Assembly (NCBI GenBank): GCA_002049455.2
Contig: KV918815.1
Span: forward strand, 186,001-250,000
DNA from: Porphyra umbilicalis
Taxonomy: Eukaryota; Rhodophyta; Bangiophyceae; Bangiales; Bangiaceae
Direction: 5' to 3'
DNA: 64,000 nucleotides
The notes below the pieces were generated by a model. The model did no database searches, was not told the origin of the DNA, and was given only the letters and a program-made list of their open reading frames with translations. Positions 3,160 through 51,103 of this stretch are shown in pieces. Each line of letters opens with the position of its first letter. The first letter of the stretch is position 1. Both the position numbers and the translations under genes were made by a program.

Positions 3160-5151
3160 ATGGCCGTCGTCATCGCGTGCCGGTGGCCCGGCGCAGATGA
3201 GGCCACGCTCGTCTTTTCTGCTCAGGGACCCGACCGCGGATGTCCACGAGATCTCACCAAGCATGTGTGGCTTCAAGGAGACCTGGAGCTGCAGGTGTTT
3301 GACAACAAACATGACGCCGCGGCGTGGACGAACGCGGGGCTGCAGATGATACCGCGGGGCGTGCAGGTTCCCTTACCGTCTTCATGTTCGGACCGTGCCG
3401 TTCGATTAATGCTGGGAAGTCGCTGCAGGTTCTTTAACCTGAGCACTGATCGTGGCTTGGAGCGCTTCTTTTCCGCGCTTCGCGACAGTAAAGGTGTTGG
3501 GCTGATGCGTACCAAGTGCTTTTCGTCATTGGCTGCGGCCCTGTCTTCAGTGAAGGTCGCAGCCCCCTCCACATCTACCTCACCCAGTCCATCTATGGTG
3601 GGCCTTCAAGTTCGAATCGCATCCAGTGCGCCGCACCGATCGGTGGGCATCGTACAAGCACCCGCTTCGCTTGGTCGTGGTGAGGGCCGGCCATGGGCCA
3701 GGCCTCCGCCTCCCCCGGCCTCCTACTGGTCCCCGACGGCAACAACCGGGGTCGGTGTCAAGAGGTCCAGCGCGGAGGGATCTTCCGGCCGTGGCGGCTG
3801 GAGGGTATCGGGTCATCGTCGACCTATCGATCCACACGCCTCTCTCATCGTCTCCATGCTGGAGAGGGGTGAAAGTGTGTTTGTGACCGGCATCGCCGGG
3901 TCGGGCAAGACGACGATACTCAAGAAGGTTCTGCCCTTCCTAGAGGTGCTCGACCCCAGGATGGGAGTCTGCGCGACGACTGGAGTGGCGGCCAGTCTCC
4001 TGGGTGGAGTTACGCTCCACTCCTGGCTCGGGCTAGTGCCGGAGGTTGTTCTCGCTGTGGCCTCTGAGTTGGACGTGGAGGACGTTGTAGCGCGATTGCC
4101 GCTCCCTGCCCGGCTTCGGATATGCAGCGCGCGCTTCCTGATCGTGGACGAGATCTCCATGCTGGATGCTGCGCTGCTGGATGGGGTGGACCGTCTCTGC
4201 CGCTCCCTACGGAGAGCTCCTTCAACGCCGCTAGGGGGTATTGTCGTCCTTTTTTGCGGCGATTTTTTGCAGCTGGCACCTGTGCAAGGTCAAGGGGCCC
4301 TCTCTGGGCAGTTTCCTTTTCAAGCCGATGTGTGGCCGATGCTCTTCGGCCCGAGGGCTGTCGTTCTTACGACAGCCGGCCGCCATGGTGCCGATGCTGA
4401 GTTCCGCTCCTTACTTCTCCACATGCGCAGGGCCGAGCTCACGCCGTCCGAAGAAGAGCTCCTGCGATCCAGGGTTGTGGCGACCGCTCCCGACGATGCC
4501 GTCTACCTGTATTCAACTACAGAAGCGGCCGAGGTGCGCAACAACAAGTGCTTAGTGAGCCTGGACCAGCCCCTTGTTACCTTTGTAGCTGAAGACGACT
4601 ACAAGCAGCTGTCCGATCGCCATGGGAAGCAGCTGCTTGCCGACTACACCAAGGCCGAGTACGAAATGAAGCTGTGTGTCGGTGCCGTCGTGCTTCTCGC
4701 CTGCAACGCGTACTTCCACGCGCACGGGTTGAGCGCGGGAGCCCGAGGCGTCGTGATCGGCTTCTACACCTTCGCGGAAAAGAGAGGCAAGAGCGAGAGG
4801 CTACCGATTGTGGACTTCTTATTGCCGACGGCTGCCCGGCGTCGGCTTTTCATCAAGCGGGAGATGTTCTGTGTTACGTCTCTGTCTGCCAGGGACAAGG
4901 AGGCAGCGACGCGGCGGCAAGTTCCCCTCGTGTTGGGGTGGGCCATGACTATTCACAAGGCGCAGGGTATGACTCTGGACACGGTAGTGCTCTCCTTAGG
5001 ACGAGTGTTTACTTTTGCCGTGGTCTATGTCGCATTTTCCCGCGTCCGTCGTCTCCAAGACGTCTTTTTGCTTTCGTTTGACGCCTCCCGCGTGTCTGTT
5101 TGTCGGCGGGCGCTTGAGTTTCATGACCGCCTTCATCGTATCACATCATAG
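3160..5151 (+). CDS. Pif1-family DNA helicase (mobile-element type)
   Basis: Intact, intronless 663-residue superfamily 1B helicase. Residues 1-240 are an unrecognised N-terminal region with a Pro/Ser-rich linker. The helicase core follows: Walker A 'GIAGSGKTT' (244-252, Lys250), Walker B 'FLIVDEISMLD' (326-336, Asp330-Glu331), motif III 'LFCGDFLQLAPV' (364-375), a late motif 'GWAMTIHKAQGMTLD' (593-607) and motif VI 'YVAFSRVRRL' (623-632). Family knowledge: Pif1 helicases are ATP-dependent 5'-3' DNA helicases, and stand-alone copies outside the cellular gene are common in Helitrons, Crypton-like elements and other large eukaryotic transposons. No HUH (Rep) endonuclease motif was seen in the protein or nearby, so this is not an obvious Helitron. 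The first ATG of the open frame is 3,160. Its 3' flank holds a module repeated at 8.7 kb. Confidence 0.93.
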   Translation: MAVVIACRWPGADEATLVFSAQGPDRGCPRDLTKHVWLQGDLELQVFDNKHDAAAWTNAGLQMIPRGVQVPLPSSCSDRAVRLMLGSRCRFFNLSTDRGLERFFSALRDSKGVGLMRTKCFSSLAAALSSVKVAAPSTSTSPSPSMVGLQVRIASSAPHRSVGIVQAPASLGRGEGRPWARPPPPPASYWSPTATTGVGVKRSSAEGSSGRGGWRVSGHRRPIDPHASLIVSMLERGESVFVTGIAGSGKTTILKKVLPFLEVLDPRMGVCATTGVAASLLGGVTLHSWLGLVPEVVLAVASELDVEDVVARLPLPARLRICSARFLIVDEISMLDAALLDGVDRLCRSLRRAPSTPLGGIVVLFCGDFLQLAPVQGQGALSGQFPFQADVWPMLFGPRAVVLTTAGRHGADAEFRSLLLHMRRAELTPSEEELLRSRVVATAPDDAVYLYSTTEAAEVRNNKCLVSLDQPLVTFVAEDDYKQLSDRHGKQLLADYTKAEYEMKLCVGAVVLLACNAYFHAHGLSAGARGVVIGFYTFAEKRGKSERLPIVDFLLPTAARRRLFIKREMFCVTSLSARDKEAATRRQVPLVLGWAMTIHKAQGMTLDTVVLSLGRVFTFAVVYVAFSRVRRLQDVFLLSFDASRVSVCRRALEFHDRLHRITS

Positions 5152-5242
5152 CACTAGAAGTACAAGGCGCATGCAGAGCATGGATGCACAGATCGCACTG
5201 GAGCTCAGTATCTCGAGCCCCAAAAGAAGTCGAATACTGTAG

Positions 5243-5555
5243 TTGTCTATTAGCCTTTTTTTGGCTGATAGCATTAGGTATTCGTGTCCTTGACTTTCTT
5301 TGTAGGAGTGCATGTCTTCCTTTCGTGATGGTTCTTGTTCTCCTTGACACGATATGTCATGTGACTTCCACTTCCTTTGCCGTCGGTCCATGCACTGTCT
5401 GCCACGTTCGACCTTGTTTGCGGCCTCCCACCGCCTCTGTTTGCGGCCCACCCTGCGACCCGTGATTGCGGCGCCCCCGCGGCGGCCCCGCCCGGCCCTG
5501 ATTGCGGCACATCCCTCCACCCCTGAATGCTGCACCTTCCGCCACGCCTGATTAC
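5243..5555 (+). repeat. 3'-flank module, copy A, with degenerate minisatellite
   Basis: This resembles 8,683-9,060 in the same orientation. Shared landmarks in order are 'gctgatagca', 'attcgtgt', 'aggagtgcatgtcttcc', 'tgtcatgtgac', and then a run of imperfect units of about 25 bp containing 'ctgtttgcggc' and 'gattgcggc' followed by C-rich spacers. It starts about 90 bp after the helicase stop. It could be a shared 3' untranslated or terminal region of related elements. Confidence 0.75.
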
Positions 5556-8298
5556 AGCTACTGTCACCCCTGCCGATCGAAGACGTTAGCCTGGACGGTC
5601 GAGCGCCGCTCGCACTCAATGCGTGGAGGGGCTCCTTCACTCGACGCACACTCGTGGGAGATTCCCGCGAGATTTTAGCGCACGACGAATGATGGAGAAA
5701 CTCCAGAAAGATCAACAAGATGATCATCCAACCCCTTCTGGAATCGATGAAGCGATACCATGGATAATGAGCACAAGTAATCGTCAGAAATATCTAAATG
5801 TTGCCGTCCGGTGACCGCCGTGTAACGTGGTGCAAGAGGTTGTCGTAAAATGGCAGAAAAGGTAGCACAAAACCGTAGGATGTATATGAGACGATGGCTG
5901 TTCCTTTCGTAATTTCGTGAGACAGCGAGTTGGCAGACGACGCCCATCATGAGCCTCGCCAAACTGCGGGCGGTCAAGTGTCTCGGCATTTGCGCCCTCT
6001 CAATGCGGGTTTCGTGCGAGGCTCTGTCGCACTGTCGTGCTGTACACAGGCGGTACACTGAAAGTAACATTCGATGTCACTGGAGTCCAACTATCAATTT
6101 ACTTTCTGTGAATAGCGTGCTATGCCATTTCACCAGAAATCTTTTTGAAGAGATGTGTTCATGGTCGTGGGATGGGCATGTAGCGCTTCATACAGGGAGC
6201 TCAGAGACCATGAAGAAGAGGGTTTTGAACTATTCTGACCACGCCAAAGTGATCAGGGATGCTGCTTTACTCATCCTGCTTCGTCTCGCCATGTATGACA
6301 TACATTTGTTTGTGCCCTGATTGCTGCTTGCGAGTTGAGGATGCCTGGGTGCTTCCGGTGTAGAAGCGCACGCGTTCCTGAGACACTGCGAGACGCAAAA
6401 ATGAAAGTCATGTGGAGCAGGGCGTAACTATCTGGTCTGGGTAAACTGATGTCCCTGATCACGCCTGTCATGTCAGATCGTTGAAAAAAGTTCTCCTTCA
6501 TCCTTTTTTGTGCGCCTGCAATGGGAGATATGGTGCCGTTGTCTGTCCCTGAGGGCACGACATGGAAGTCGACCGCCGCTGGTCTGCGAGTGTCCCACAC
6601 CGTGGTAGTGACGGACACCTTTGAGTTCCCCGCCCCGCCTTATCTGACGCGCTCCAATTCTAGGCGCTGGCGATAACCCTGTTGCCGTCAGCGCCCACCG
6701 TCAATCTGCTGTTCGACGCCAGCCCGCCTGCCTCTTCGCTGCAGGCCGCCGTCGTACATGTTACGGTCCCCTCGCTGCCAATCGTGCCCCACCAGAGGCT
6801 GCTCGGCGCGGCCGTAACCGTAACCCACGTCTCTGTCCTCTCTTCCCTGACCGCGAAGCTTATCCCCAGCCCCGAACTTGTGTGAACGCAACCCTAGCTG
6901 CACTCAGTGCCTCGTAGCGCACCGGCGACTGTGAATTGGCCCGCCGCCCAGGTCGATGGCGCAGGTCCTTTCTGGAATGTAGCATCGGAGGGCTTTCTGT
7001 GCCGAAGGGTGTGGAGGGAGGATGAGCCTTTCCACTCGATGTGAGCCGATACCTTTAGCAGTGGCGCCTCCCCCACGGTGGTGCCCAATGTGGTGATGGC
7101 GTGTCCGCTGCAGATGTAAGGAGGCCTTGAGGAATCCCCCGGGTGCGCACCGGGTGAGCGCGGGCGCTTGGCCACTGCGGGGTCCGCTTCTGCCGAAAAG
7201 GGTATAAAGGATCTGTTTTCTTGCTCTCCTCCACTGGGGCTAGTCCGCGAGGCAGGTATTGGATTCTTTCCAGACAGGGACCTTCCCCCACTTGGCACCA
7301 GCACGCGGGTCGCTCCGCCACTCGTTGGGCCCTCCCCTGCTCGCCGCTCTTCACTGCCGAGACCACCGCCCCGCCGTGCGTCATCGCTCAGGCGATCAGG
7401 TGTCCCTACCGTTCGCTGACCTCCGCCAATCCTCGCTGAAGCCGTCCACGCCTGTATTCATTCCTCGTCCGTCCCTCTCAGCCGTCGCACCGCCGCGTGT
7501 GGCCGGAAGCGTCTGTCACTGGCACGCCAGCATGGGCCCCAGAGGACTTGCACACGCGGCGGGCTGGTGCCAGTTGGGGGTGCCATTCGGGGGGCAGTGC
7601 CCCGGGCAGTCCGGGCGGCGCCTCCCCACACACAGCAAGTGCCCACCCTGGGATTGGGGGTGCGGTGCTATCCTCTTCCCCGTAGTAAACAGCTGTGCTG
7701 CCCATTCGGCTTCTGCAGCGTCGTCTAGGACGGAAGAACCCTGGAATCAGGGTTGCACCAGAGACGTCGCGTTTTACTAAAGGATGAGAGGAGGTCCGTA
7801 CAGTGGACCCCCGGCGGGCGAGCATGCCGACCAACGCGGCGGTACATACTACAGCAGATGTGGAGTGATGCCCGCTGCTCAAGCTCAAAGAAGCTGTCCC
7901 ACACGCCCGATTGGATGCTGTTTGCCGCGCCAAACCGTTACCCTCATGACATCCTGAATCCTAAGTGCATCCCGCGCGACTTTGGGCTCCACCCCTGGTG
8001 TGGTGGCCCACCGGTATGCTACCGAGAACAGAGGGCGACGCAAAGTGAGCCACTCTTGTGAAGCGTACATATAGCCAAAAATGAGAAAAAAAGACGGGTG
8101 TAACCCCCCAAAGGGCTTGCCACCAGCCAAGTCGCTCCTCTTCAAAGCGAAAAGGCCAGTGACGGGTGCTACCGGTCACGCTGGGTATTTGCTTGGCCGC
8201 GTGTGCGTGAGTCGCCCCGGTGCTAGCCGCACCTCGTGACGGGACGCCGGGAGGTGGCGCCCGAGCGCCGCGTCCGCCGCTTGACCCGCTGCAGGGGA
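5556..8298. other. No supported gene; scattered short coding-like stretches
   Basis: Lower-GC, mostly non-coding sequence. Short open stretches with protein-like composition occur on the plus strand around 6,529-6,690 ('LSVPEGTTWKSTAAGLRVSH') and 6,682-6,885 (Val/Leu/Ser-rich), in different frames, and may be fossil coding sequence. Nothing in them is recognisable. No clear terminal repeats, tRNA or array were seen. Confidence 0.35.
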
Positions 8299-8676
8299 AT
8301 GCAGATGGGAGAGAATCTGCTGCTCATGTTGCTCATGGCCTCGTTGTCGGACACGACGAGTGACCTGGCGCCTGCCCGAAACGGCCGCCGAGGTGGTGTG
8401 GGGGGGGGCGTTGCGTCGCCGCCGCCTTCAGCTGGTGGCGCGAGTGGTGAGGCGATGAGGGCAGGGTCACGTGGCGGCCACAGCACGCAGCGACATTTGA
8501 CCGCAAAGGGCGCGAGTAAGGATTTAGGGGCTACGGGTCAGGATTATCCCGTGGGGCTAGTCAGCAACTCCCCGGCGTTCGACGCACTCTTTGGCCCGCC
8601 GTTTATCTATGCTCGCACGACTGCAGCTTCTGGCCCCGGAACGGTCCTGTCAGCGTCCGAAACAGTAGTTTGGTAA
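8299..8676 (+). CDS. Small hypothetical protein
   Basis: A 125-residue open frame from ATG 8,299, starting 'MQMGENLLLMLLMASL'. It has a hydrophobic N-terminal stretch (residues 5-16), then a Gly/Arg/Ser-rich middle and a more ordinary C-terminal part ('PAFDALFGPPFIYARTTA'). It ends a few bases before copy B of the repeated module, just as the helicase ends before copy A, so the two 3' ends may be homologous in origin. No family was recognised, and it could be a chance frame. Confidence 0.3.
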   Translation: MQMGENLLLMLLMASLSDTTSDLAPARNGRRGGVGGGVASPPPSAGGASGEAMRAGSRGGHSTQRHLTAKGASKDLGATGQDYPVGLVSNSPAFDALFGPPFIYARTTAASGPGTVLSASETVVW

Positions 8677-8682
8677 TAGCAT

Positions 8683-9060
8683 TCTACATGTCTAATAGTC
8701 TTATATTGACTGATAGCACATTCGTGTGGTGTACTTGTTTTTCTTGATAGGAGTGCATGTCTTCCACTCGTGCTGGTTCTTCCTCGCCGTGACAAGACAT
8801 GTCATGTGACCTCCGCCTCCTCGGCTGCCCGTCCGTGCCCGGTCTTCCACCCTTGACCTTGCTTACGGCACGTCCCGCCACCACTGTTTGTGGCACCTCC
8901 CGCCACCACTGTTGGTGGCACGTCCCGCGACCCCTGTTTGCGGCGCCTCCCCCCCCCTGGCTCCGGCACCTCCTCCCCGCCTGTGTTTGCGGCACGTATC
9001 CTGCCTTCTTCGAGGCACCCCTCCCACATTGTTAGCGGCAGCCCCTCCCTCCTGTTTTCG
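8683..9060 (+). repeat. 3'-flank module, copy B, with degenerate minisatellite
   Basis: Direct repeat of 5,243-5,555 (landmarks 'gactgatagcacattcgtgt', 'aggagtgcatgtcttcc', 'gtcatgtgac'). The downstream minisatellite has units such as 'cgccaccactgtttgtggca' and 'ctgtttgcggcgcctcc'. It lies directly upstream of the protease-ankyrin gene. Confidence 0.75.
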
Positions 9061-9165
9061 CCCTTTCCACCGCGCTGCTCGCGGCATCCACCGTGCCCTT
9101 TTGCTGCATGACGCCTGCATGACTGCTGCGGCACGAGTAGCTGGCACAACTTCCGGCTCTTCATC

Positions 9166-12100
9166 ATGTCTCCGCCGCGCCGCGGTCGGTCGCAGAAGGG
9201 GACACGGGCGACTGCCTCAACACGCTCGGCAGCAGATGGTGTGAGTCCTCCTGCAAGCGCAGCGGGGATGACCGGCCGAGGCCGCAAGCGCACTGCTGCT
9301 GCACCACCCGTCGACGAAGCTTCCTCTGTGGCCGACACCATCGATGAAGTCCCTGGCGGGGGCGCGGGTGAGTCCAAGACGAAGCGGTTGCGTACGTCGG
9401 CTCGCCTCCGGGGAAAGTCGACAACCCCGGTGGAGGAGCGGGACCGCTTGTTTGACGTCGACAACGACATCATCCAGTCGAACCGGTCATCCGTAGTTTT
9501 TCGCTACCCCCCGGGCGAGCCGGACGCCATCGACGTCACCCAAGATGACGTCGACACCCTTGTGGACGGCGGGCACCTGAGCGACGGCATTGTCGACTTC
9601 TACTCCCTCGTTCTTCTCGGACCGGACATGGGGGTACCTAGCAACATCGCCACCTTCACGTCGCTGTTTGCGACGTTGCTGATGCAGAATCGGGCTTCTG
9701 CGCTGGCGTCTCTCGCCAATCAAGCGTCGTCAACATTCGAGCGTGAGTTTTGGGTGATGGCAGTCGTCCAGCACGGCCATTGGTGCTTGGCTATCGTCGT
9801 GCGGCCTGATGAGCTGGCCACCCGCGTCATCAAGTTGGCTACTCAAGGTGGCAGCGTCGGCAGGGGCACGCTGGTGAACAACAACTCCTTTTTGGTCATC
9901 CTCGACCCCAAGCGCGGTGGCAACGACTACCGTGGACTCAAGAAGGCGCTCGCCGACTGGATGGTGGACAGGCTACACGAGAACAATGAGACGGTGGACA
10001 AGGCGGTGTTGCGCTCGCTTGTGGGCAAAGCTCTTCCCCTACGACATGTGAGGGTCCCGCAGCAGTCCGACTCCTCGAGTTGTGGGCTCTTTGTGCTGGG
10101 GTTTTGGGCGGCATTCATCCACGGCGACGACGAGACCCGCAGCCTCATGTGCGGCCTGACGTCATCGACCAAGAAGTCATCCGTTTGGACGGATTTTATG
10201 TCCACTCTACCAACAAGGAAGGACATCATCACCGCGTGTGACAAGGTGCGTCGCCAGGGACTCAAGGACAACGCGGACAAGGCCAAGTCAACAAGCTCCG
10301 ACGGTCAAGCCAAAGGGACAGTCGCGGGGATGGTCGCGGCGGCGGCGGCTGCTTTAGCGGTGGCAAGGCGCGCCTCCCCAGGCCGCGCGGACAAGGACAA
10401 GCCCAGCGGCGCCAGTGGCAAGGGAAAGGGCGTGGAGACGGAGGTCAAGAAGACAACGGCAAGAAATGACACGGTCAACCACGCCTCCTCCCCGCACGTG
10501 AAAGAGGACGGGCGGGCGGGCGCCGGCGACAAGAACTCGGATGGGGGGACAGTCGATGCAGCGGCGGCCACAGCGGCGGCTGCAGCGGTGGCCAAGGCCG
10601 CCAACGCCTCCTCCTCCCGTGCGGACAGAAGCGTGCCGGGCGGCGTGCGTGGCAAGAGCAAGGACATCAAGACGACGGCAGCGGCCGCTGCAAAGGCCAG
10701 GAACACCAGTGCGCCCCCCCCCACGCTGAGGGAGACGGGCCGGCGTGCGTCGACGACGCGGACATGGACGTGGGCACGGGGGCCGCTGCGGCCCCTGCAG
10801 GCGTGACGCCGGCTGCCAACGCCCCCCCCGCCCACACGGACGACGCAGAGCCGGGCGGCGCGGACGGCGTGGCCAAGGACGGCGGGACGGCGGCAGCGGC
10901 TGCTGCAAAGGCAGCGGCCACCGATGCCTCCCCCTCCCGTTCTGAAGGAGGCAGGTCGGCACGGGCCGACGACAAGGACATGGACATGGGCACGGCGGCC
11001 GCGGCGGCGCCTGACGGAGTGACGTCGGCCACCAACTCCCCTCACGCCCACACGGACGACGTCGAGCCGAGCGGCGCCGGTGGCACGGACAACGACGGCG
11101 GGACGGTGGCGGCGGCTGCTGCCAAGGCTGCGGCCACCGATGCCTCACCCCCCACTCTGAAGGAGGTGGGTCGGCGCGGGCTGACGACAAGAAGATGGAC
11201 ACGGGCGCGCCGGCCGCGGCGGCGGCTACAGCGCCGACTGCAGGCGTGGCCGCGCCCCCCGAAGCCTCCCCCACCTTTGTGGACCCCGACGTACCGGCGG
11301 GCACCGGCGGCGGGGCTTTAGAGCCGGGGACGGATGCAGATGCGATGGCCGCAGCGGCGGCCGAGCTCGCCTGCCAGGCTCGCCGAGCCCAGGCAACTGC
11401 CTGTACGGCCGGCAATGTCAACAATTCCGCTGAGGATGCCGCCAAGGCGGCGGCCGCCGCGGTTGTCGATGGTGCATCCTTACCACTGGCACCACCTTTG
11501 GCTGTGCGGAAGCCCGCTGTCGCCACCCGTGGCGGCAAGAGCGTCTTGCTGCCGGGCGCGAGCCGCGTGGTCTCCCTCTTTTGGCGCATCTCCAACGCCG
11601 AGCCGGAGGCGGTCGAGACGTTGCTACATGACGGCGTTGACGCCAATAGCGTTGTCGGCGGCACATTGCCGCTCCTCCACGCGGTGGAGATGGGGCAGCG
11701 TGAGTCGATTTCTCTGTTGTTGAGGGCGCGGGCAGACCCGAACCTAGCGTCTGGTCGGCGTCGGCTTACGCCCTTGCTCGTGGCCGTTCGGAAGCGCGAT
11801 GAGGTCGTGTTGCAGGCTCTATTAACTGGTGGCGCGCTTGCCAATCTGCTGGCGCCTTGTGGACTTGGTTGTGTGCGTCTTGCGGTCAGTGTGGGGAGCT
11901 TGTCCATCCTCAAGATTTTGCTCGACGCTGGTGCAGCAGCTGACCAGTGCGGCCTTGACGGCTGGACGCCGCTTCTTGAGGCTGCCTACCGCAACAACGT
12001 GGTGTGCGCTTCGGAGCTGGTACGGAGGGGGGCGGACGTCAACCGTCCCGATCGCTCTGGCGTCGTCCCTTTGTACGTGGCTGCTGCTGCTGGCCGGACG

Positions 12101-12313
12101 GAGCTGGTTCACCTCCTCGTTCAAGCGGGCGGTGACCTCATACTGCCGGTTGGTCGCTCGTCTCCATTGCTAGCTGCTGCATCGGCCGGTCATCACGCCA
12201 TGCTGAAGTCTTGGTGGCTCCCATTCAAGAAGAAGATGGCGGTGCTACGCGACCTCCAAGACAAAAAAGAGGACATGGTGGCTCGTTTGTTGATGGACTT
12301 TGGGGACGGTTGA
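9166..12313 (+). CDS. Ulp1-type SUMO/ubiquitin-like protease fused to ankyrin repeats; two frame breaks
   Basis: The N-terminal part (9,166-10,700) is a C48-family cysteine protease. The catalytic set is visible: His205 in 'HGHWCLAIVV', Asp247 in 'ILDPKRGG', Gln300 and Cys306 in 'PQQSDSSSCG'. The spacing Gln-x5-Cys matches Ulp1/SENP. An Ala-rich linker of internal repeats follows, then at least five ankyrin-like repeats (about 11,570-12,230, e.g. 'DGWTPLLEAAYRNNVVCASE'). The frame moves twice, at a C9 run near 10,713 and a C6 run near 11,146. Comparison with the middle linker copy shows each site is one base short. With one base added at each, a single frame of about 1,050 residues would run from ATG 9,166 to the TGA at 12,313. 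Family role: removal of SUMO-like modifiers; such proteases are frequent cargo of eukaryotic DNA transposons. Confidence 0.88.
10480..11250 (+). repeat. Coding tandem repeats in the Ala-rich linker
   Basis: Units of about 213-219 bp begin near 10,705, 10,918 and 11,137, preceded by shorter related copies near 10,483 and 10,603. Each encodes a Ser/Pro block, then 'ADDKDMDMG', an Ala run and 'HTDDVEPSG'-like acidic spacers. The first and third full units have lost one C in the C-run relative to the second, and that is where the frame breaks. Confidence 0.8.
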
Positions 12314-12638
12314 TGACTGACCGTGGGTGTGTGCGTGCTGAGGTGTGATAAACCCATTTATGAGTACCGCTTCTAAGTGAAGTATGACTGTGTTGTGCAG
12401 ACCTGATCGCTGACGCCAACTAGACGTCCTCGAGGCTTTGTACTCACACTTGTGGGGCTGTCAAGAAAGGCCAGCGCCACTGCCTCCGCCATGCACGCTG
12501 AACAAGCAGCGTTTGTCGGTAGCACGGGCACGAACGGAGCGAAGACATTGGAATAATGTATAGGCGTGTCGTTTTATTCTCTTGCATAGGGTCTGCTATT
12601 GTAACTGCCTCAGAGCCACACCGGTATTCTACCACTAC
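12314..12638. other. Short convergent intergenic space
   Basis: The protease-ankyrin gene and the minus-strand gene at 12,639-13,946 end tail to tail here. I see no gene, hairpin array or repeat. Confidence 0.5.
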
Positions 12639-13946
12639 TCACACAAACTTGTCCTTGTTGGCTGTGGCATAGTCGAGGATGTGCGCAGCCCACGCCTCGA
12701 CGGTCAGCGGCACGCTCCGCCAAACGGTCTCGCCCTTCAGGTTCGTCTGGAACTCCCCCGGGAGCCGCTTGCTCTGGGCGTCCACGTCAGCGTCCATAGC
12801 AGCAACGACTTGTCTCATCCACTCGAGCGCGCCCAGCTCTCGCGTCTTAAAGCTTTCGGGTGCCTTGTCCAACACGGTGTCAAATACACGCTTGCCCTTA
12901 GTCGCAGACAGACCGGCGGTGATGGACAAGGCGGCGGCCGACCCCACAGGCGCAGAGTTCGCCTTCGTCCAGCGGTGCCGCCACAGCCCAAATGGAAGAG
13001 CCTTGCTCGTCACCGCGTAGAGCGTTGGCCGCCGCCGCGTCACCTCCGCCCCAACCTCGCTGTTCTTGATTGTAGGCTGGCCCGTCTCTGGGTTGATGCG
13101 CTCCACGAGCACAGCCGCAACGCAGTTGAGCCGGACCCAGGTGTCGGTGCGCGAGCGCGCCGCCGGGCCGGCAGCAGGTGCCGACGTGTTGATGGCCGGA
13201 GTGAACGGAGTAGTTCCAGCCGGCGGTGCGGCGGTGGCAGCCGATGATGGGAGAGCTGCGACACTTGAGGCGGCTGCTGTCACCAGAGCAGCAGGAAAAG
13301 CCGGAGGGGTAGCAGTCATCTCGCCGCTCCTCTGGCCTGGAGGGATGGTGGAAGCCGCCGCGGCCGGTGATGGCCACGCCAGAGACAGAAGGCGATGAGG
13401 TGGACGCACACCCCTAGTGTCCCAAGCAACAGCAGCCTTGTGCATTGAGCGCATTTGGCTCAGTAGCACCGGTGACGGCACGCGCCCTTGATTCACCTCG
13501 GCGAGCTCCGTGACGAGGCTGTGGTGCACGTCCATGTCGTCGGGGAAGAGCGGGGAGTCTTGGATGCAAAAGTCCGCGACGGACACCGCCGAGCACTTGG
13601 ACAGCAGGTGCGCCACTCGCGACTGCGTCTCTTGGGGCTCGGTGACCTCCCAGAGAGCCATTTCGGCTGCCCAGGCCGAGTAGGAACAAGGTACGGGATG
13701 CCCCATGGGGACTAAGTTGTCGTCGACAGGCGACACGGACGGCGACGGGGGCAGGGCTGGAAACCAGGGCGACGGTGGATTGGAAGGTAGTGAGAAGCCC
13801 GGGAGCTCCCCCTCGGCTGCTAGAAAGTCCCCACCACCGAGGGAGGGGCAATGGGGGGGGGGAAGGCCGAGGTCAAGAAGAAGGCTGGTGTGATGAGGGA
13901 GGTCAGATGGATTGGGGCCACTTGGGGTATCCGACTCCGAGGCCAT
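12639..13946 (-). CDS. Unknown protein divergent to the recombinase
   Basis: Intact 435-residue frame from the ATG at 13,946. Residues 1-75 are Ser/Pro-rich. Residues 90-170 look folded ('SVADFCIQDSPLF', 'LLSQMRSMHKAAVAW'). An Ala/Pro-rich linker follows, and the C-terminal 150 residues look globular ('TWVRLNCVAAVLVERINPE', 'GALEWMRQVVAAMDADVD', 'VPLTVEAWAAHILDYA'). I recognise no family. It is transcribed away from the tyrosine recombinase across 466 bp of AT-rich DNA, so the two are probably co-regulated and may both belong to the element. A DNA-binding or accessory role is possible but not shown. Confidence 0.75.
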   Translation of the reverse strand: MASESDTPSGPNPSDLPHHTSLLLDLGLPPPHCPSLGGGDFLAAEGELPGFSLPSNPPSPWFPALPPSPSVSPVDDNLVPMGHPVPCSYSAWAAEMALWEVTEPQETQSRVAHLLSKCSAVSVADFCIQDSPLFPDDMDVHHSLVTELAEVNQGRVPSPVLLSQMRSMHKAAVAWDTRGVRPPHRLLSLAWPSPAAAASTIPPGQRSGEMTATPPAFPAALVTAAASSVAALPSSAATAAPPAGTTPFTPAINTSAPAAGPAARSRTDTWVRLNCVAAVLVERINPETGQPTIKNSEVGAEVTRRRPTLYAVTSKALPFGLWRHRWTKANSAPVGSAAALSITAGLSATKGKRVFDTVLDKAPESFKTRELGALEWMRQVVAAMDADVDAQSKRLPGEFQTNLKGETVWRSVPLTVEAWAAHILDYATANKDKFV

Positions 13947-14412
13947 GGCGCAAGTGCGTGAGGGGACGCGAGCGACAAGTCGAGCAGCACAATGCGCTCA
14001 CGCTGTCACGGATTGCATCCGCTGACGGATGTCTGGTATGGACGCTCTAGCCAACCACTGACAGACCCGCAATGCAGATAGCCACAATATTAAACACCTA
14101 ATAGTACATTAATAATACGTATTGCACAATCCCTCACTTCCAAATAGACAAGGCCGAGAAAGTGCTGGAATAAATCTTTACTAGTAGTATTACTTGTATA
14201 CTAGTAGACCTACTAGCATCTTCACAAAGGGACATTAGACATCGAGCGCTCGGCAACCGACCACCATGTGTTGTCTCTGCACCTCCATGCAAAAAGAGCA
14301 TAGGTGACGGTGATACGGTCGCAAGATCGCTATACTTGGAGAGAGCACCTCGTTGCCGTCCTCAACAAGCTGCAGCTACCTCACTGTCCGTCGACTGACG
14401 CCGTCAGCAACA
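13947..14412. promoter_or_regulatory. AT-rich bidirectional promoter region
   Basis: This separates the start codons of two divergent genes. It contains the most AT-rich stretch nearby (about 14,070-14,240, with 'aatattaaacacctaatagt' and repeated 'actagtag' motifs), in strong contrast with the GC-rich coding DNA on both sides. No precise TATA box or initiator can be assigned. Confidence 0.45.
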
Positions 14413-16530
14413 ATGGAGGCCGTTGGACAAGACGGGACCCTGGTGGGCGGCGGCGGTTCGATGAGTGATTCCACGCCCGGCCGCGGACCATCGTTGGAGT
14501 CCGTCGGCAATGGAGTTGTTGACGAAGCGCGCGCTGAGGAGGGGGAGCCTGACGTCATCGGCGGATGGGACGAGGTCGAGCCGACAAGAACGGACGAGGA
14601 CGACGCGGCCATCGCCGAGGTGGAGGCCACAGTCACGTCGGACACATCCAGGCTGGTGGGCACCCCGGAGCAGCTCGCTGCCATTGACTCTTCGTGGGAA
14701 AGTGCCATCATGTCTGAGATCATCGCGGACCTTCCTTTTGGGTCCAATGACTCTGACCCGAACTCAACCGCCGTCAAAGAAGGCGGAAAAAAGGACATGT
14801 GGCGGCACTACCACTCCACGTTTACGCTCTTCATCAACTTTTTGGGGCGCGCAGTCGCCGAGCCGGCTCTTGTTCGAGCCCAAGTTCCTCTGTCGCCCCT
14901 GATCGTGGATACGAAGGCGTTTGACCTGCTGCACAAGATGAGCAAGGCGACGCCTTTGTACATCCGGTCCTTTTTGGAGTGTCGGCGGCGGGGTCTCAAG
15001 GTGTCCGGTGGGCTTGCGCCGCTCAAGATGGTGACGGTCAACAACAACATGAAGCCGCTTGGCTACCTCTTTGCCTCATGCGTGTTGCCCAAGCGACTCG
15101 GTGGTGGCCCCGTCAGCCCGGACTGCGGACATCGTGAGGACCCGTTTCGCATCAAGCCCCTGTCGGACCAGGCGGCTGAACGTCTGCGCGGCGTCGCTGC
15201 CGGCACGTACATGGGAAATCCCATGAACGATGCCCGCGTCTCTGGGTTCCGGCGGGATGAGACAAAGAATGCCATGGAGGCGGGCGAGCGCCCGCAGTCA
15301 AACGCACCTGTCACCGACGTGATGATGGAGGCGTTCTACGACCGCATGGTTGTGCGGCATGTTCGGGCGCGGACCGCTAGGAGCTCCTTCAATGCTACCC
15401 AAGACAGCGAGTCCAAGGCTGTCTTCCACGCATTTACGCTCTACGCGTTCTCCTTCATGACAATAAGCCGGCCGGTGACGACGCTTCGACTCGTGCACCG
15501 CGACATCCAGACCCCGAATCCTCGGCTGCCCGTCAACGCTGCGTTTATGCGCAGGTACGTTCTCTTTCGGTCTTTCTTCGTATGCTTGAGTGAGCGCGTT
15601 GTTGGCCAAACGTGAGCTTTCCTGTCAGTTGTGCAGCAGCCTAACACCTATCTACGCTTCTGCACCAGCAAGCGGTGTAACCCGCACCGTCGTCGAACAA
15701 TGTCCCACTTTGTGCTTGATCATCATCTCTTCGCCTGTGCCTGCCCCAACTTCAGGTTCAAGCACTTTAGGTACATCACGGTGCGGAGCCGGATCTGCAA
15801 GACGGGGAACACCCCCAATGATGTCGTCAGCATCCGCTTCTACAGCAAGTATGCGTTGGTGGGCGACACAGAGCGCCGTGAGCTGGGCGCTGGAACATTG
15901 ATCCAGTGTCCAGAAGATTGGTGCAACCTGCCGGCGCTGTACAGCGGCTTATTGGCCATTCATGGCCAAGACGCTATGGTCAACCCCTTTTCGGCAGGAT
16001 TCCTGGACACGCCTCTGTTCTTCAAGCTCGATATCAATCGCGAAGGTGGGGCAACATCAAGCGACGTCCCTCTCCCAGATAAGGCCTTGACCGACCGCCT
16101 CGCCCTGCATTGCGCCGACATCGGCATCGACGCCACCCAAGGAGTTGTTCACAACGGCGCGTACGGGTTCCGTCGTGGCGGCACCCAGTTCTTGTTGGAG
16201 CGCACGGGAAACATTGACCTCGTGATGCGACTGGGGGGGTGGTCGCGCACGTCGGACAGCTTCATGCACTACGTGAGCAACGTGTCGATCCGGGGCTCCT
16301 GGACGTCGACTCTGCGATCCCACGCCGACGACGAGGTCACGCAAGTTGTGCACACGGTTGTGGAGGCACATCGCGACTTTATTGTGGGCCAGGCCCGTGC
16401 AACCGCTGACCGACTCTGGGACGGGCCTAACCAATTCACAACAGCAACAGCTGTTGCCGATGATAGCATCAAGCTCCTCGTCTCTATTGTTGTTGATGTG
16501 TTTAAGCAGCTCCGTGGAGGGCCGCTTTGA
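14413..16530 (+). CDS. Tyrosine recombinase (Crypton-like), one intron
   Basis: Coding sequence join(14413..15554,15669..16530), 667 residues. The intron is 15,555-15,668 (114 nt): donor CAG|GTACGT, acceptor TGCACCAG|C, and a branch-point-like CTAAC 24-28 nt before the exon. Its length is divisible by three but it contains an in-frame TGA, so splicing is required. Catalytic-type residues: Arg353 in 'SRPVTTLRLVHRD', a box II 'YGFRRGGTQ' (Tyr546-x-x-Arg549, with Tyr where His is usual), Trp572 in 'GGWSRTSDSFMHYV', and nucleophile Tyr582. Residues 1-130 are acidic and unstructured. Family knowledge: tyrosine recombinases move Cryptons by cut-and-integrate recombination. No reverse transcriptase is nearby, so a DIRS element is unlikely. 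An earlier TTG in frame was not used because ATG 14,413 has good context. Confidence 0.88.
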
Positions 16531-16883
16531 GGAGCTCACTGTTTTTTTTGTTTCCTGGTGAAGAAGCGACTTTCAGTGTTGTTGAGTAGGCTTATCCACC
16601 ATAAAAGGCATATAGCTATAAAGTAGATACTATGTGCCACTTTGTGGACTTCATCTGGCTTCATGACGTTCCACATATTCATGAAGTGCACGTGCATCAG
16701 AGGTCGCCGCGGCCTTGCGAGAACTGTGCCGCGTCTTCGTCGTCCCCTCCCTTGGCTGTGCTGCTCGTGACTCTCTCTGCTGCACATCTATCCCCTGCTT
16801 CGTCCAAGCCACAACACCCTATCCCCTCTCTACATCCCATCCTCTCCCTCCCACTTGGTGCTCTCTTTCTTCCGTGCCTCGTC

Positions 16884-17354
16884 ATGGGCACGACTGAGTC
16901 GACTTCGCAAGCGGACGATGCCGGCGTTCGGACGTCACCAGGTGCCGAGCTTGCAGCTTCCATGGCGGCCGCCGCGGCGGCTGCGGCCAAGAATGCCGGC
17001 GCCAACGCAACGACTGCACCTCCTGTTGCTTCCGTGGTGCCCTCGGTGGCCGACGTGCCGCCGGATGCCAAGCTGGTCGACCAGTGGGTTGCGTGCATGC
17101 ATCGGTGGGGCGTGCCAATGTCGTTGGACTCTATATTGAGGGTGGCTGTGCTCCTTGCGCGGACGGAGGATCTTTTTCCTGAGGTGTTTTTGTCTGCTTC
17201 ATGCTCGTTGTTTACTCGGGACAGCTTGGCCGCTAGCTTTACTGCTGGTCTCCAGGAAGCGAATGGTGGAGTTCCCGTTTCCGAGGTCACGAAGTGTCGC
17301 GTGAGGGCCGTCTTTGATTGTGCTCTTGCTGCCCGTGCCAAGAGGATAGACTAA
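16884..17354 (+). CDS. Small unknown protein downstream of the recombinase
   Basis: A 156-residue frame from ATG 16,884 after a pyrimidine-rich leader. Residues 1-60 are Ala/Thr/Ser-rich. Residues 70-156 look like one helical domain ('LVDQWVACMHRWGVPMSLDS', 'ILRVAVLLARTEDLFPEVFL', 'VTKCRVRAVFDCALAARAK'). The frame is open further upstream but that part is leader-like. It lies 350 bp after the recombinase on the same strand, so it may be a third gene of the element. No family recognised. Confidence 0.6.
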   Translation: MGTTESTSQADDAGVRTSPGAELAASMAAAAAAAAKNAGANATTAPPVASVVPSVADVPPDAKLVDQWVACMHRWGVPMSLDSILRVAVLLARTEDLFPEVFLSASCSLFTRDSLAASFTAGLQEANGGVPVSEVTKCRVRAVFDCALAARAKRID

Positions 17355-19110
17355 TGTTCGGCCAACAAGCACGGCCCCTTACCCACCCTCTCTCCGTGTC
17401 TCCCATCTGCCTTTTATCTTCTCGCCCCCGCCTATCCTTTTACCCTCCCGCTCCCACCCTCCCCATTCTCTCCGCCCGCCCCCCTCCGTCGGTGGCAACC
17501 GTCGGCCGCGGTGTGCTCACGCCGCCGGCCGGCGCGGCTGCCACCCGTGTCGCTGCAATGAAAGTGGCTTCGCTGTCGAGGTGTGTGGACGACGCGTCGG
17601 GTGCGATGGCGGCGTACCGCCGCTCCGCGTCGACCGTGGCGCCTGTCGTTGCCTTGCCGCTGGCATCGACTCGGGGTAGCTGACGTCCGTGAGGCGGGCG
17701 GCGGCGGTCGGCAAGGCGCCGGCATTGTTGGCCGGCGGGGGGGTGGGGAAGTCCCCATCGCGGACGTCAACCGCGCGGCGGAGCTCGTGGAGCCGTGGGA
17801 GAGAGCCGCCGGACGCGTCTCTGGTCGGAGCCACGGGGGGGGTGGGGGGGGGACAGCAGCAATGACTGCGACCCGGCGGCGGCCGTGCACGTGCTTGTGG
17901 CGGTCACCCAGATCACTGCCGCGCGGATGCCGGCCGCCATGCTTGACGCGGCGGGGGCGGGCGGCGTCGCGTGCTCCAATGACGGGAGATTGGCGGCGGT
18001 CGTGACGCCCGCCGATCGCCGTCGGGGGCTCACCGCCGCCACTACCGCCGCGCCAGCGCCGGGCACCCCCCTCGCGGTCGCCGCCGCCACTTCACCCCCC
18101 AGCACTGCCGTCCCCCCGCCACCCACCGCTTCGCTTCGGCGGCTGTTCCGTCGACGGCTGGCCCCGAAGAGGCCGCGAAGGGGGTGGGCGCCACCGCCGT
18201 CGCCGCGGGGCGGTCGTTGGATATCCGACAGGAGGAGGTGGCGGCGTCGGCGGCGGCGCGGATGGCGCGGCGGGGCGGTGGCGGCGGCTGTGGACCCCCC
18301 CCGACGTCGGCGTCGGAATGGGAGAGAAAGGCAACGCCACGCCTCGGCTGGTGGCCGGTTCTCCTTCCTAGCGGCGGCCGGCGGTCACCGGCGTCGCCTT
18401 CCCGCCCCGCCACGATTTACTCTACGCGTGGCGGGTGATGGCTGGGGTGCCAACGCGTTTCGGCTGGCTGCGGCTGCCGGCCTCCACCCCACCGGCGGTG
18501 GCGGCGCGTAAGGCCAACCTATCGGCGGCGGGCGTCGCGTCCGCCCTCGACGCCAAGGAGAGTGGGATGGCGTCAACTCCTCCGCGTCCGCCGCCGTCGG
18601 GACGACGACCGGGACATTGCTCGGTTGACGCGGGAGCAGTTGGACAGTTGCATCGGAGTGGGTGGGGGTGGGGGTAGCGGGAGGGGTGGGGGCGGCGAAG
18701 GGGCTGTGGAGAGGTGAGGGCGGCGGGGGGGCTGGCGAGGGGCGGGGGGACCCTGTCGGCCTGGCCACCGCGCTAGCCGCCGCGCGGCCCGCGTGATACA
18801 TGCAGTACTTGGTTGTTGCAGAAGCAGTTGGGCACGGTCTACCGTTCGTGCGCTACCGCGCGGGGGGGGCGGCGTCGGCGCTGCCGGCCGCCGCGCTGGC
18901 GCCTCCGCCCGCAGAGGTGGACGCGGGCGGCGGTGACGCCGCGGCGGCGGGCGGCGGGGACGCCCGTGTCCGCGGCGGCCGCGGCGCCGGCGGCGGCGGT
19001 GGCGGCGACGCCGGCCGACGAGTCGGCGGTCGAGGCGCGACGGACGATGCGCTCTTGGACCGCGCGGTCGTGGCGTCTGGCGGCGGTGTGTGAGGGGTGA
19101 GGGGGGTGCG
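17355..19110 (+). pseudogene. GC-rich, frame-broken coding-like stretch
   Basis: Plus-strand protein-like segments occur in sequence but in changing frames: 'VASLSRCVDDASGAMAAYRR' (17.56 kb), 'VPIADVNRAAELVEPWERAA' (17.76 kb), 'VHVLVAVTQITAARMPAAML' (17.9 kb), 'SLDIRQEEVAASAAARMARR' (18.2 kb), 'RDIARLTREQLDSCIGVG' (18.6 kb). This could be a degenerate gene, or a gene with homopolymer errors. No family recognised. Confidence 0.35.
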
Positions 19111-19390
19111 TGTCTGGCGGGTGAGATGGGTTTGTCGGCGCGCCGTAGGTCACTTGCTCTTTCGTGCTCTTCTCATCGCAAGCATGCGCCCGAGGCTGCT
19201 TGTTTCGCTTCGCGGCTTCTTTTTTATCATTGGCGCGGACAAGACGCTGGCAGGGAGGCGGTGTCAGAAAGCGAACAGTGTGTGACTGTGTCCTAGAGAA
19301 GCAAGAAAGACTGCATCACAACAAGGATAGAATCCAAAGCTACATCCCAAACAACGAGGTCTGCCAAGCGTTGAACGCCAAACCTGACAG

Positions 19391-20478
19391 TTACACAAGC
19401 ATGGACCGCTCCCACGCAATGAAGCACCAGCGTGCGTCGGCCATGCGCACACGCGTGGCCGACACGTACTCCGAAAGCGGGTACAGATGTTGGTAGGGAT
19501 AATGACGGGTAGGGTGGCTGACGTCAGTAACAATCACTACCGCCATATTGGCAGTAACCAGCTTGCCGTTCAGGTTGGGCAGGTCCAGTCGACGTAGCCA
19601 ACAGCCACGAGCGTCCCGTCTTTGAGGCTCAGCTTGTTTTCGGTGACGCCACGCCCGTCCTGCGGCACCAAAGAGCTGGACAAAGCGTCTGTAACAGGGA
19701 GGGTCCCGGTGAGGGGATGCTCCAGTGGCAGCGAGAACCGTACACGGCGCGTGCGTGGTAAGCGGGAAGAAGGCGACAGTGTAGCCGATACGGCCGCCAG
19801 CTGATCGGTGCCACTGTCGGCACGCGCCAGAAGGGGGGTAGAGGCACACGTGGTCGAGCAGGTAGCGACTGTCGCAGCGCCATCGTCCCTACGAGGCTCA
19901 TTGAGCAACCTGGCTTGGTCTCCAGGCTTGCCGACGTCAGAGACGCTCACCGGCGCGAACTCTGGCATGGACCGGCGGACGCCGGCAGCTGCCTTTTCGA
20001 AGGTCTTAGGGGGCCCCTTGGTCTTCTTGGTGACGGTGCGCTTGGCGTGTGGCGTGGACGCGGCCGCTTGGGTGTTGGACTGCCCTGAAGAGCCCGCGAA
20101 CATCTTGGCCGCACTGCGCGTGACGCGCGCGATGGTTGAGGCCGCGTACGTGGAAGCCTGCTCTGCGGCCCGGGAAGCGTCCTTGTCGTTAGTCCGCTGG
20201 CTCTGCATCCTGCTGCGCGGGGCCATGTTCGTTGATGCCGGCTCCCACTTTGTGGAAGAAGTCGCCGCCTTCGTGGAGAAAAGGGGAGATGGGGGAGCAG
20301 GTGGACAAGCGAGCAGGGGAACTGGTGCGCAGCGGAACTGGTGCGCAGGGATGGAGGTTGTCGGCTGTGGTGTGTCTCGTTCATCGTAGCAGGGAGAGCT
20401 GCGGTGCCATCTTATACTCTTCGAGACGGTTTCAGTCCAGCGCTGCACTCCAGAGAAGATGGCGGGAGGAAAGAACAT
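19391..20478 (-). CDS. Unknown protein with one frame break
   Basis: The main frame runs from ATG 20,478 (or, more likely, ATG 20,226 'MAPRSRMQSQRTNDKDAS') to 19,570. Its apparent stop follows 'VAVGYVDWTCPT'. Shifting by one missing base in a short C run near 19,580 continues it into 'NLNGKLVTANMAVVIVTDVS' and a further 40 residues, ending at the TAA at 19,391. Features are a basic Ser/Thr-rich N-terminal half with 'VTRSAAKMF' and 'RTVTKKTKG', then a beta-rich C-terminal domain. This layout resembles the other minus-strand partners at 12.6 and 29.3 kb, but I see no sequence family. Confidence 0.6.
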
Positions 20479-20885
20479 GGCGCGAAAGCGTCAGCAAACC
20501 CGTGCATTTTAACAGTGTGGGAGATGGACACAGCCAAAGAACATACTGTTAACGGAATATGACATATCGCATATCGACTATCTGACACAAAGCATGTATA
20601 CTTACCTTATAAGACAATTCGACTGCTTGTGTCCGGCTGCAGCCCGCTCGTCAATGTGTGACGTCAGTGCTCTGGGGTGGGGGGCTGCTTTTGGATCTGA
20701 TTTTCATCATGCTAGGAGATGAGCCATGCAGTTTTGGCCCGTGCGACACTTCTTCTTGCACATCAGAGCCCCCCGCGGCTCGCATGGCCAGGCGGACGCG
20801 GCTTGGACAAGCTACCCCGCTCGTTTGCTTCATCGTGTGCCACCTTCTCCCCCCCCCTCCACTTTTCCTCCTGTTCTGTCACAGC

Positions 20886-21350
20886 ATGGAAGTTGTCGAC
20901 GTTTCCATGGCATCGGCGGGCACGTGCCCTGTCACGGGGCTTGCTCTCGTCGATCCCCATGCTAGGTATGTGGCCGGGCGCGGGGGGGACTCCGAACACG
21001 GTGTCGTCGGCGTTTTCGTCTGCTCTCTTTGCGATGGCCTGAATGAGGCGCACTGAAGCGGACCTTGTAACATGGCATGGCTATTTCATTTGTTTCTTTG
21101 CTCTGTGCTGTTGGTGCCTGCCGGGTTCATATCTCTGCCTGTAAATCGTGTCTTCTTCTCTGTACGCCTTTTAAAGCCTCTCTTGTGCGCACAAATATTC
21201 CCTGGCAGGCATTGTGCGTCACATACTTGTGCGCACTCGTGCACCCAAGCCAATCAAGGACTCCGCGCCCTCCCTCAAGCTTCTTGCCTGGCGAACGGCA
21301 TGTTGCCCTGTCGTGGGGTGCAGCGCCGTTGTTGGCGCTGCAACCCTTGA
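20886..21350 (+). CDS. Candidate spliced Cys/His-rich mini-protein
   Basis: Predicted join(20886..20965,21209..21350), 73 residues. The donor is CTAG|GTATGT and the acceptor CCCTGGCAG|GC; exon phases (2, then 1) fit. Exon 1 carries 'CPVTGLALVDPHA'. Exon 2 in the spliced frame is strikingly Cys/His-rich ('HCASHTCAHSC', 'MLPCRGVQRRCWRCNP'), which suggests zinc binding. Without splicing, exon 1 runs to a TGA at 21,056. A competing frame in exon 2 ('VSDDVVVVAVVRKQT') also looks plausible. No known family is named. Confidence 0.35.
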
Positions 21351-22233
21351 GCCTGTGTCTGATGACGTGGTGGTGGTCGCTGTGGTGCGTAAACAGACTT
21401 AGCTTTGCCTATTGTGTATTGGTGACCTTTTTCTCGATGTAGTGCCGAGCACTGAGATGTGGACCGTGTATTTGGATAGACCCTACAAGGTGTGTGCCGT
21501 GCATGAGGACGACACGTTGCTGCTGCTTGCTTTCTCGTTCATCGGTAGATTCTGTGGTGGTTCCATAATCGAGCAGAGTACAGCAGCATGGCGCTAGAAG
21601 CTTTGCAAAGATGTACAGGGGGGCGGAAAGGGCGCGGAAACTCGTGCACTACTTTGGGAGGAAGACGACAAAGGTGGGGTTGTCACGTACACGCGATTCG
21701 CTCCTTCCATACTGCCCCGGAGAGGCGGGGCTGAGGGTCCTTCAGTACAACCAGAAGGGCACCTGGAGGCTCCCACGACTCAAGGAGGCTGCCAATGAAG
21801 GGAAAACCCCGCCAGGCAGCGAACTGGATGCCAGTGTATGATTGCTGATCAGTCTACTACATGTCGTATGGTCATTGTCATGTAAGCCTACCTACACGTC
21901 GTATAGGAATTGGCATGTAAGCCTACAAGTGCTCTGTTAGAACTAAGAGGCTACGCCAAATATGTCGTGTATGATTTCCGGGCACCAATGTGCTCCCGTC
22001 GATAGAATCGACCAGGGCGGCTCATGCCGCGTCCAGCTGGTACTTCACAGCCGGATGGTCGTAGTCCACTCCGTTCTTCGAACGGCAGCCTCATCTCTTC
22101 CACCTTTTTGTTCCAGTTCTTCGTACGACGCCCCGCCACGCGTGGCTTCGCCCCACTTGAATGTATCTTGTTGTTCGGTGGGAGCTTCATCGGCTTGGGC
22201 TTGGGCTGCTGTGGTTTGGTGGACGCTGTAGGT
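21351..22233 (+). other. Possible small ORF and leader of the SAP-motif gene
   Basis: A frame at 21,611-21,841 ('RARKLVHYFGRKTTKVGL', basic, 76 residues) has coding-like composition but no recognised domain. At 21,860-21,935 a short imperfect repeat ('tgtaagcctac', twice) lies in AT-richer DNA. The frame of the next gene is open back to 22,024, with a hydrophobic stretch that may or may not be translated. Confidence 0.3.
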
Positions 22234-50751: not shown

Positions 50752-50784
<33 letters not shown>

Positions 50785-50995
50785 GTGACGGTGACGGGGG
50801 CGGGGGGGGAGGCGGGGGCGTCCACGGGATGGCGGCGGGGGTGCGGCGCCAGCGGTAGGCCTGCCCGATGGGCAACGTCACGTCCAACCGCAGGTGCCCG
50901 TCGGGGATGCGGAGGGGCCGCCACCCGCCGCCGGCGGGCGGGGTGGCCATCCTCACGCCGACCAGGGGGGGGGCCCAGGCGGGCAGCCGCCGCAT
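49169..50995 (-). CDS. OGG1: 8-oxoguanine DNA glycosylase/AP lyase, Ala-rich insertions, frame-broken
   Basis: Base-excision repair enzyme that removes 8-oxoguanine from nuclear DNA. The N-terminal domain reads 'LRLDVTLPIGQAYRWRR' (about 50.86 kb). After a Gly/Pro-rich stretch and a frame change near 50.7 kb come 'EARLFVLRQLAQPPQAVRVG', helices 'EALYSFLCTPQCQLARSATL', and the helix-hairpin-helix 'LPGVGQKVAACVASL' with catalytic-type Lys. 'IPVDTHVW' follows with the conserved Asp. A second break at the C-run near 49,855 leads to 'WAHNVLFAAEL', the conserved C-terminal helix. An Ala-rich extension (third break near 49.63 kb) ends in 'TLRARKRRAPPA', a likely nuclear localisation signal. Each break needs one additional base. 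Start: ATG 50,995 or 50,950. Confidence 0.92.
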
Positions 50996-51103
50996 GGCCA
51001 ACCGCAAAGGGCGGGCGATCGATGGGGGGGGGAGGGGGGGCAGGGGGGGCGGGTCGAAGCCAAGCGGGGTGATGGGACTCTGGGTGTTGGAAGAGCATTG
51101 TTA

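Follow-up and report, generated by a model that had tools for sequence, protein, structure and literature searches.

Knowledge of large multi-gene elements that carry a tyrosine recombinase comes mainly from fungi. In one such element, the Sanctuary Starship, the recombinase, or captain, carries R260, K308, Y424, R427 and Y458 at the Cre positions (PMC12506042). A recombinase and a Ulp1 protease (C48 peptidase) occur together in the CryptonF and CryptonS elements of oomycetes (PMC3212892), and earlier authors have proposed that the Ulp1 of transposons may assist repair (PMC2836005). This report deals with a 64,000-nucleotide stretch of the genome of the red alga Porphyra umbilicalis (contig KV918815.1, positions 186,001 to 250,000 of the forward strand), hereafter called the window, and with an element of about 22.3 kb that occupies positions 2771..25091 of it. 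With a probability of about 0.8, this element is a red-algal DNA transposon moved by its tyrosine recombinase via exchange at a short core sequence. The evidence consists of features that are directly observed, namely its ends, a short direct repeat, a single-copy empty site, dispersed copies, a gene set in constant order and an active-site pattern.

A first-pass annotation of the window had recognized four genes within 8.2 kb (9166-17354), encoding a Ulp1-ankyrin fusion, a protein here called P0003, a spliced tyrosine recombinase and a small protein here called P0006, and had proposed that they form an elaborate recombinase unit whose boundaries were not visible. The four genes are present at these positions and, in answer to the check that the annotation had proposed, protein searches recover them with unchanged order and orientation at two other contigs, C100 and C35 (C-numbers denote contigs of the genome searched, 83.8 Mb in 665 contigs, and the window copy is C55; the search scores only the best candidates, so that all genome-wide locus counts are lower bounds). 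As order and orientation are the same at both places, the cluster is not due to chance. The unit is mobile and does include the Ulp1-ankyrin gene, but it had been seen only in part: it is nearly three times larger and also comprises genes for a PIF1-type helicase and for a protein called ORF7. Indeed, C100 and C35 each carry six genes, these two included, in the same order and orientation, in a set stretched by later insertions to about 40 kb in C100, where 13.2 kb are inserted 3' of the recombinase, and to about 61 kb in C35. Fragments of the four-gene set were also found by protein searches at C119, C12 and C327. A 2.3-kb fragment at C119 (L011, L058) is 99.6% identical to window positions 16094-18402, with N at its left boundary, and is perhaps an assembly join. 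In keeping with a red-algal host, the genome has 12 phycobilisome-linker matches, four of them on C665, probably the plastid, and eight on other contigs; of 14 control genomes, a cyanobacterium alone gave such matches.

The extent of the element follows from DNA comparison of the copies, whose homology extends to 2771 and to about 25091 (± 1-2 bases at the right end) and then ceases: C100, C35, C12, C271, C70, C327 and C1 stop matching there and their flanks differ. End searches yielded six left ends (C55, C271, C70, C12, C100 and C35) and six right ends (C55, C327, C1, C35, C91 and C100, split in C91 and C100). Among these 12 ends the termini are constant and the flanks different, except in C35 and C70, which have a common target repeat. 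The stretch 25091-25403, which is common to the window and C100, was considered as part of the element and rejected; it is a separate repeat, since a nested insert of 1.4 kb precedes the final 130 bases at this end of C100. Positions 25098-25403, which flank the element, are 85% like part of this nested insert. The element as a whole has a GC content of 61.5%.

The left end carries a direct repeat, the core GGGACCC, at 2771..2777, and the right end its counterpart at 25085..25091, which reads GGGAGCC here and GGGACC or nearly so in other copies. The left end sequence is GGGACCCGCGTCAAA in C55, C271, C70 and C35, the core being altered in C100 and C12; the right end sequence is TTAGGGGACC in C100, C1 and C327 and nearly the same in C35, C91 and C55. 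The copies C35 and C70 are inserted at the identical place of one dispersed repeat, which has at least 40 copies scored among 51 candidates (for example C599:13701-14055 and C111:122926-123280) and has twice been the target of the element. All eight copies of this repeat that were fetched are empty at the matching place, where they carry a single core, CTGT-GGGACCC-TCCCC, with one base changed in L087. When the flanks of C35 are joined, they give the same sequence as these empty copies, and the filled site has GGGACCC on either side. The alignment of copies, which the first-pass annotation had recommended, has therefore delivered both the ends and the empty sites. Inverted terminal repeats were not found by blastn of the two ends, and local alignment of the ends is no better than that of shuffled sequences (38 of 500 as good). 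A single-core empty site and a core on both sides of the C35 insertion, without inverted repeats, fit integration by a tyrosine recombinase. Close to the ends lie two GTGGGATT repeats (2800..2817, + strand) and three GTGGGAT repeats in the same orientation (25003..25047, + strand); GTGGGAT occurs eight times in the element, five of them within 95 bp of an end and in one orientation. These motifs were chosen after looking, and they are candidate binding sites of the recombinase.

The predicted tyrosine recombinase gene (14413..16530, + strand) consists of two exons, 14413-15554 and 15756-16530. The intervening GT-AG intron at 15555..15755 is the most likely one, as the frame is kept and the relatives resume at the same place; the spliced product would have 638 aa. 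The protein presents in order R353, K396, Y517, R520, W543 and Y553, a pattern R-K-Y-R-W-Y that matches the Cre-like R, K, H/Y, R, H/W, Y and bears out the earlier call of a spliced tyrosine recombinase. In alignments from which relatives carrying stops were excluded, R353 is present in 7 of 7 N-terminal sequences, K396 in all 11 of the 13 C-terminal sequences that cover that position, R520 in 13/13 and W543 in 12/13. Eleven of these 13 have Tyr (Y517) where the His would stand, the exceptions being L017 with Cys and L023 with Asp; eleven likewise keep the nucleophile Y553, which L015 and L019 lack. Unguided profile alignment sets the first Arg, the Trp and the Tyr on the residues of Cre, and 1 of 200 shuffled Cre profiles does as well; the Cre and lambda Int profiles used were thin (4/80 Cre relatives at 65-80% and 80/80 Int relatives at 99%, the remainder near-identical). 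The replacement of His by Tyr has a precedent, as the Sanctuary captain carries Y424 at that position. The predicted identity as a tyrosine recombinase thus comes from the residue pattern, not from profile libraries. Among prokaryote contigs, one relative was met (L089 5001-5789, 64% GC, JAHDHX010000014.1, assigned to a Candidatus Gracilibacteria bin), and this contig is probably eukaryotic contamination.

The first gene at the left encodes a PIF1-type DNA helicase of 663 aa (3160..5151, + strand), open in the window copy (Pfam PIF1, E 8.1e-25; solved PIF1, E 2.1e-50). Near the right end, ORF7 (22228..24192, + strand) encodes a protein of 654 aa that has no Pfam or NCBIfam match and whose relatives lie near other recombinases; a likeness to SAP domains seen by eye was dropped, as no profile supports it. 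The genome contains 36 recombinase loci (matches to either exon merged within 4 kb, fragments counted in). A PIF1 gene lies within 5 kb of 17 of them, compared with 0.27 expected if the 62 merged PIF1 loci were evenly scattered, and these 17 exclude the family of the window, in which PIF1 and the recombinase are 9-10 kb apart. Relatives of ORF7 are found at most 5 kb away from 6/36 loci, and C64, C496, C513, C37 and C40 display the common order ORF7, recombinase and PIF1 reversed. The protease follows another distribution: C48/P0001 matches (P0001 being used here for the Ulp1-ankyrin protein) lie within 10 kb of two recombinase loci only, C55 and C100, and nearly all of the C48 matches in the genome, at least 114, are away from recombinase loci. 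To judge from these arrangements, PIF1 rather than the protease is the constant partner of the recombinase genome-wide. Away from recombinases, C48/Ulp1 and PIF1-like frames occur in pairs, at distances of about 3-7 kb, on 20 contigs (C164, C541, C99, C145, C34, C20, C32, C42, C136, C51, C71, C155, C261, C162, C26, C223, C200, C356, C135 and C178), and this pairing may represent another transposon family.

The Ulp1-ankyrin gene (9166..12313, + strand) encodes a Ulp1/C48 protease domain, an alanine-rich linker and ankyrin repeats, as supported by Pfam, by likeness to SENP1 and by comparison of copies. The Ulp1 domain matches Pfam C48 at residues 203-327 (E 6.8e-6), resembles SENP1 mainly at residues 121-211 (E 4.6e-4) and has the catalytic His, Asp, Gln and Cys all in place, as read by eye from the translation; the ankyrin repeats match Pfam at E 1.1e-22. 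The fusion claimed by the first-pass annotation is interrupted in the window, as two poly-C tracts break the frame. C100 and C35, the other two copies examined over this stretch, have Ulp1, linker and ankyrin repeats in register at these tracts, with stops elsewhere in both. Since they are in register across both tracts, the fusion is a property of the family, the window copy being broken or misread at the two poly-C runs.

Two further genes flank the recombinase, P0003 (12639..13946, - strand; 435 aa) and P0006 (16884..17354, + strand; 156 aa), neither of which has a Pfam match at E up to 1. They have a common domain, found in P0003 at residues 79-173 (E 1.8e-14, single target). Between P0003 and the recombinase, an AT-rich divergent stretch (13997..14400; 48% GC, falling to 35% at 14080-14240) likely contains promoters; the AT-rich region reported earlier is thus real, and its promoter role is plausible. 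The P0006 domain also recurs as the C-terminal part of Ulp1-type proteins at C84 (L043), C108 (L047), C2 (L048) and C323 (L045), with E from 1.2e-5 to 0.0096 in a small set. At C141 (L063), it ends a protein of 671 aa that resembles Ulp1 over its first half (E 0.08 with Pfam, which misses the cut-off; E 2.3e-17 with a P0001 + L043 profile, small set). Most contigs that carry these proteins (L043, L045, L047, L048 and L063) are without a recombinase match.

The nearest relative that has an assembled recombinase, 44% identical, is at C182. A Ulp1-like frame (E 1.4e-8) followed by a P0006-type frame lies about 4 kb from this recombinase, so that C182 displays counterparts of PIF1, recombinase, ORF7, Ulp1 and P0006, with a second P0006-type match on the opposite strand. 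The view of C182 as protease-free was rejected, as the P0001 + L043 profile revealed the Ulp1-like frame that earlier C48/P0001 searches had missed. Because C182 keeps this frame near its recombinase, the protease is probably an inherited part of the recombinase lineage and not an accident. The first-pass annotation had held that recombinases lacking the neighbours, or neighbours occurring in unlinked families, would speak against a unit. Both occur in part, as seen from the 34 recombinase loci, fragments included, without a C48/P0001 match within 10 kb and from the many C48 matches elsewhere, yet C182 has its Ulp1-like frame.

In the window copy, the PIF1, recombinase, P0003, P0006 and ORF7 genes are all open, and its closest copies are C271 and C327 (98-99%). 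Between the C55 and C100 recombinases, changes by codon position number 21, 22 and 27 and are almost even; P0003 and ORF7, with C100 and C35 pooled, show a modest third-position excess (54, 38, 72 and 59, 45, 77, respectively). These changes fit copies that mostly decay once inserted.

According to the reading favoured here, the recombinase would excise the element, probably as a circle, as in other tyrosine-recombinase elements. The circle junction would then consist of the right end TTAGG, the core GGACC and the left end CGCGTCAAA, and exchange at the short core, either GGACC or GGGACCC, would reinsert the element with a single core copy at each end. The enzyme responsible for this exchange would be the recombinase of the element itself. 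PIF1 might help to copy the circle or to pass forks, thereby raising the copy number. As for the Ulp1-ankyrin protein, our guess is that, perhaps together with P0006 and P0003, it strips SUMO off host chromatin or repair proteins and so permits transposition; that desumoylation acts against silencing is likewise a guess.

Several points weigh against this reading. No circle, transcript or polymorphism was seen. In principle, some other enzyme could produce a 7-bp repeat as a target duplication. The His of the classical tetrad is absent from the recombinase and replaced by Tyr; searches with this protein in Pfam, PHROGs, NCBIfam and solved structures gave nothing usable, the lambda Int profile did not stand out (27 of 100 shuffles did equally well), and a structure model of exon 2 alone, with one relative, reached a pLDDT of 43.6 and was not used. 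At nineteen of the 36 recombinase loci, fragments and contig ends included, PIF1 is absent from the surrounding 5 kb. The Ulp1-ankyrin reading frame of the window copy is interrupted. Finally, in alignments some related Ulp1-like proteins seem to be without the catalytic Asp; therefore protease activity may not be general among these relatives.

A bolder version of the transposon reading is advanced here tentatively. The element could represent a superfamily of its own, made up of eukaryotic tyrosine-recombinase elements that copy themselves in circular form. Recombinase, PIF1 and ORF7 would be the inherited core, and the element would amount to a red-algal integrating plasmid whose SUMO protease is fused to ankyrin repeats here and, in relatives, to a P0006 domain.

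It is unlikely that the element is instead a Crypton-like transposon which the recombinase alone moves and which acquired PIF1, Ulp1-ankyrin, P0003, P0006 and ORF7 accidentally as passengers. The occurrence of Ulp1 in some oomycete Cryptons (PMC3212892) and the 34/36 loci without C48/P0001 agree with such a history, but the genes would hardly be passengers if PIF1 adjoins divergent recombinases at 17/36 loci, if ORF7 relatives do so at six and if C182 retains counterparts of five of the genes. Like Cryptons (PMC3212892), the element has a tyrosine recombinase and no inverted repeats, and its direct repeats of 5-7 bp are close to their terminal direct repeats of 4-6 bp. It differs from them by PIF1, the ankyrin fusion, ORF7, its 22 kb and the lack of a Pfam match, and their R-H-R-Y signature is not seen, as Tyr (11/13), Cys (1) or Asp (1) stands in place of His. 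Neither the active site, which lacks the His, nor the size, which is unusual for a Crypton, supports the Crypton type proposed by the first-pass annotation.

A non-fungal lineage of the Starship superfamily, that is a large captain-driven cargo element, is quite improbable. Starships (PMC12506042, PMC11623301, PMC12134995) likewise combine large size, several genes and a recombinase with direct repeats and empty sites, and the likeness extends to the active site: Tyr replaces His at the Cre H289 position of the Sanctuary captain as at Y517, and R353, K396, Y517, R520 and Y553 have a spacing like that of the five captain residues given above (PMC12506042). However, Starship captains belong to DUF3435 (PF11917), whereas neither exon of the recombinase has any Pfam match at E up to 1, nor do the 13 C-terminal members at E up to 5. 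Captains occupy the first gene position, at one end of their element; the recombinase described here lies centrally, with 11.6 kb of the element to its left and 8.6 kb to its right. Starships are usually of 100 kb and have fungal hosts, whereas this element has 22 kb, a red-algal host and a helicase in fixed partnership.

An integrated polinton-like virus or virophage is very improbable and already partly refuted. Some polinton-like viruses (PMC12220804) likewise have a tyrosine recombinase and a superfamily 1 helicase, are integrated and are of similar size. They carry, however, capsid, packaging ATPase and polymerase genes, to which no Pfam match was found among the element ORFs scanned (small ORFs being outside the scan), and a pattern scan of viral contigs gave 24 stretches with no confirmed recombinase relative. 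That the copies, few and all known from one genome, are segmental duplications of an ordinary, immobile host gene cluster is refuted by the empty site, with precise ends, flanks that differ at most of the 12 ends and insertion within a dispersed repeat whose other fetched copies are empty. The transposon moved by its own recombinase remains the preferred reading.

Other frames of the window concern its surroundings or have an uncertain status. Within the element, an open frame of about 300 aa on the - strand (19570..20487), without a Pfam match, is of uncertain gene status. Outside it lie two large open frames, one at 34758-38575 without a Pfam match above cut-off and one at 29338-31998, which was considered as an ORF7 relative and found unrelated on comparison, as well as an ordinary 8-oxoguanine DNA glycosylase gene (OGG1-type; 49845-51143, minus strand).

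Further known systems resemble the element in single traits. Helitrons likewise have a PIF1-type helicase, Helraiser being matched at E 5e-18; here the helicase is a separate gene, without a Rep domain according to Pfam, and the ends have a direct-repeat core. DIRS-type retroelements have a reverse transcriptase, to which no Pfam match was found among the element ORFs scanned; the same holds for DDE transposases. Ginger1 and Mutator-like transposons (PMC2836005) also encode a Ulp1 domain, but they use DDE transposases, and in Ginger1 Ulp1 is fused to the transposase. A recombinase together with PIF1, ankyrin repeats and 22 kb was not described in the titles and abstract openings among the matches listed in the open-access literature (preprints and most subscription papers being outside it), and the Crypton paper (PMC3212892) has neither 'helicase' nor 'red alga' in its text.

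Globally, the combination of recombinase and Ulp1 is thus already known from oomycete Cryptons (PMC3212892), and the set with PIF1, ankyrin repeats and 22 kb appears to be new. Large elements of this kind, characterized so far mostly in fungi, acquire a red-algal example with exact ends and a clean empty site. The pairing of recombinase and PIF1 at 17 other loci makes it testable whether such elements assist in copying their own DNA, and the presence of Tyr at the His position of the active site makes multiple origins of this feature testable. Lastly, a mobile element with a SUMO protease in two fusions offers a handle on why many transposons carry Ulp1.

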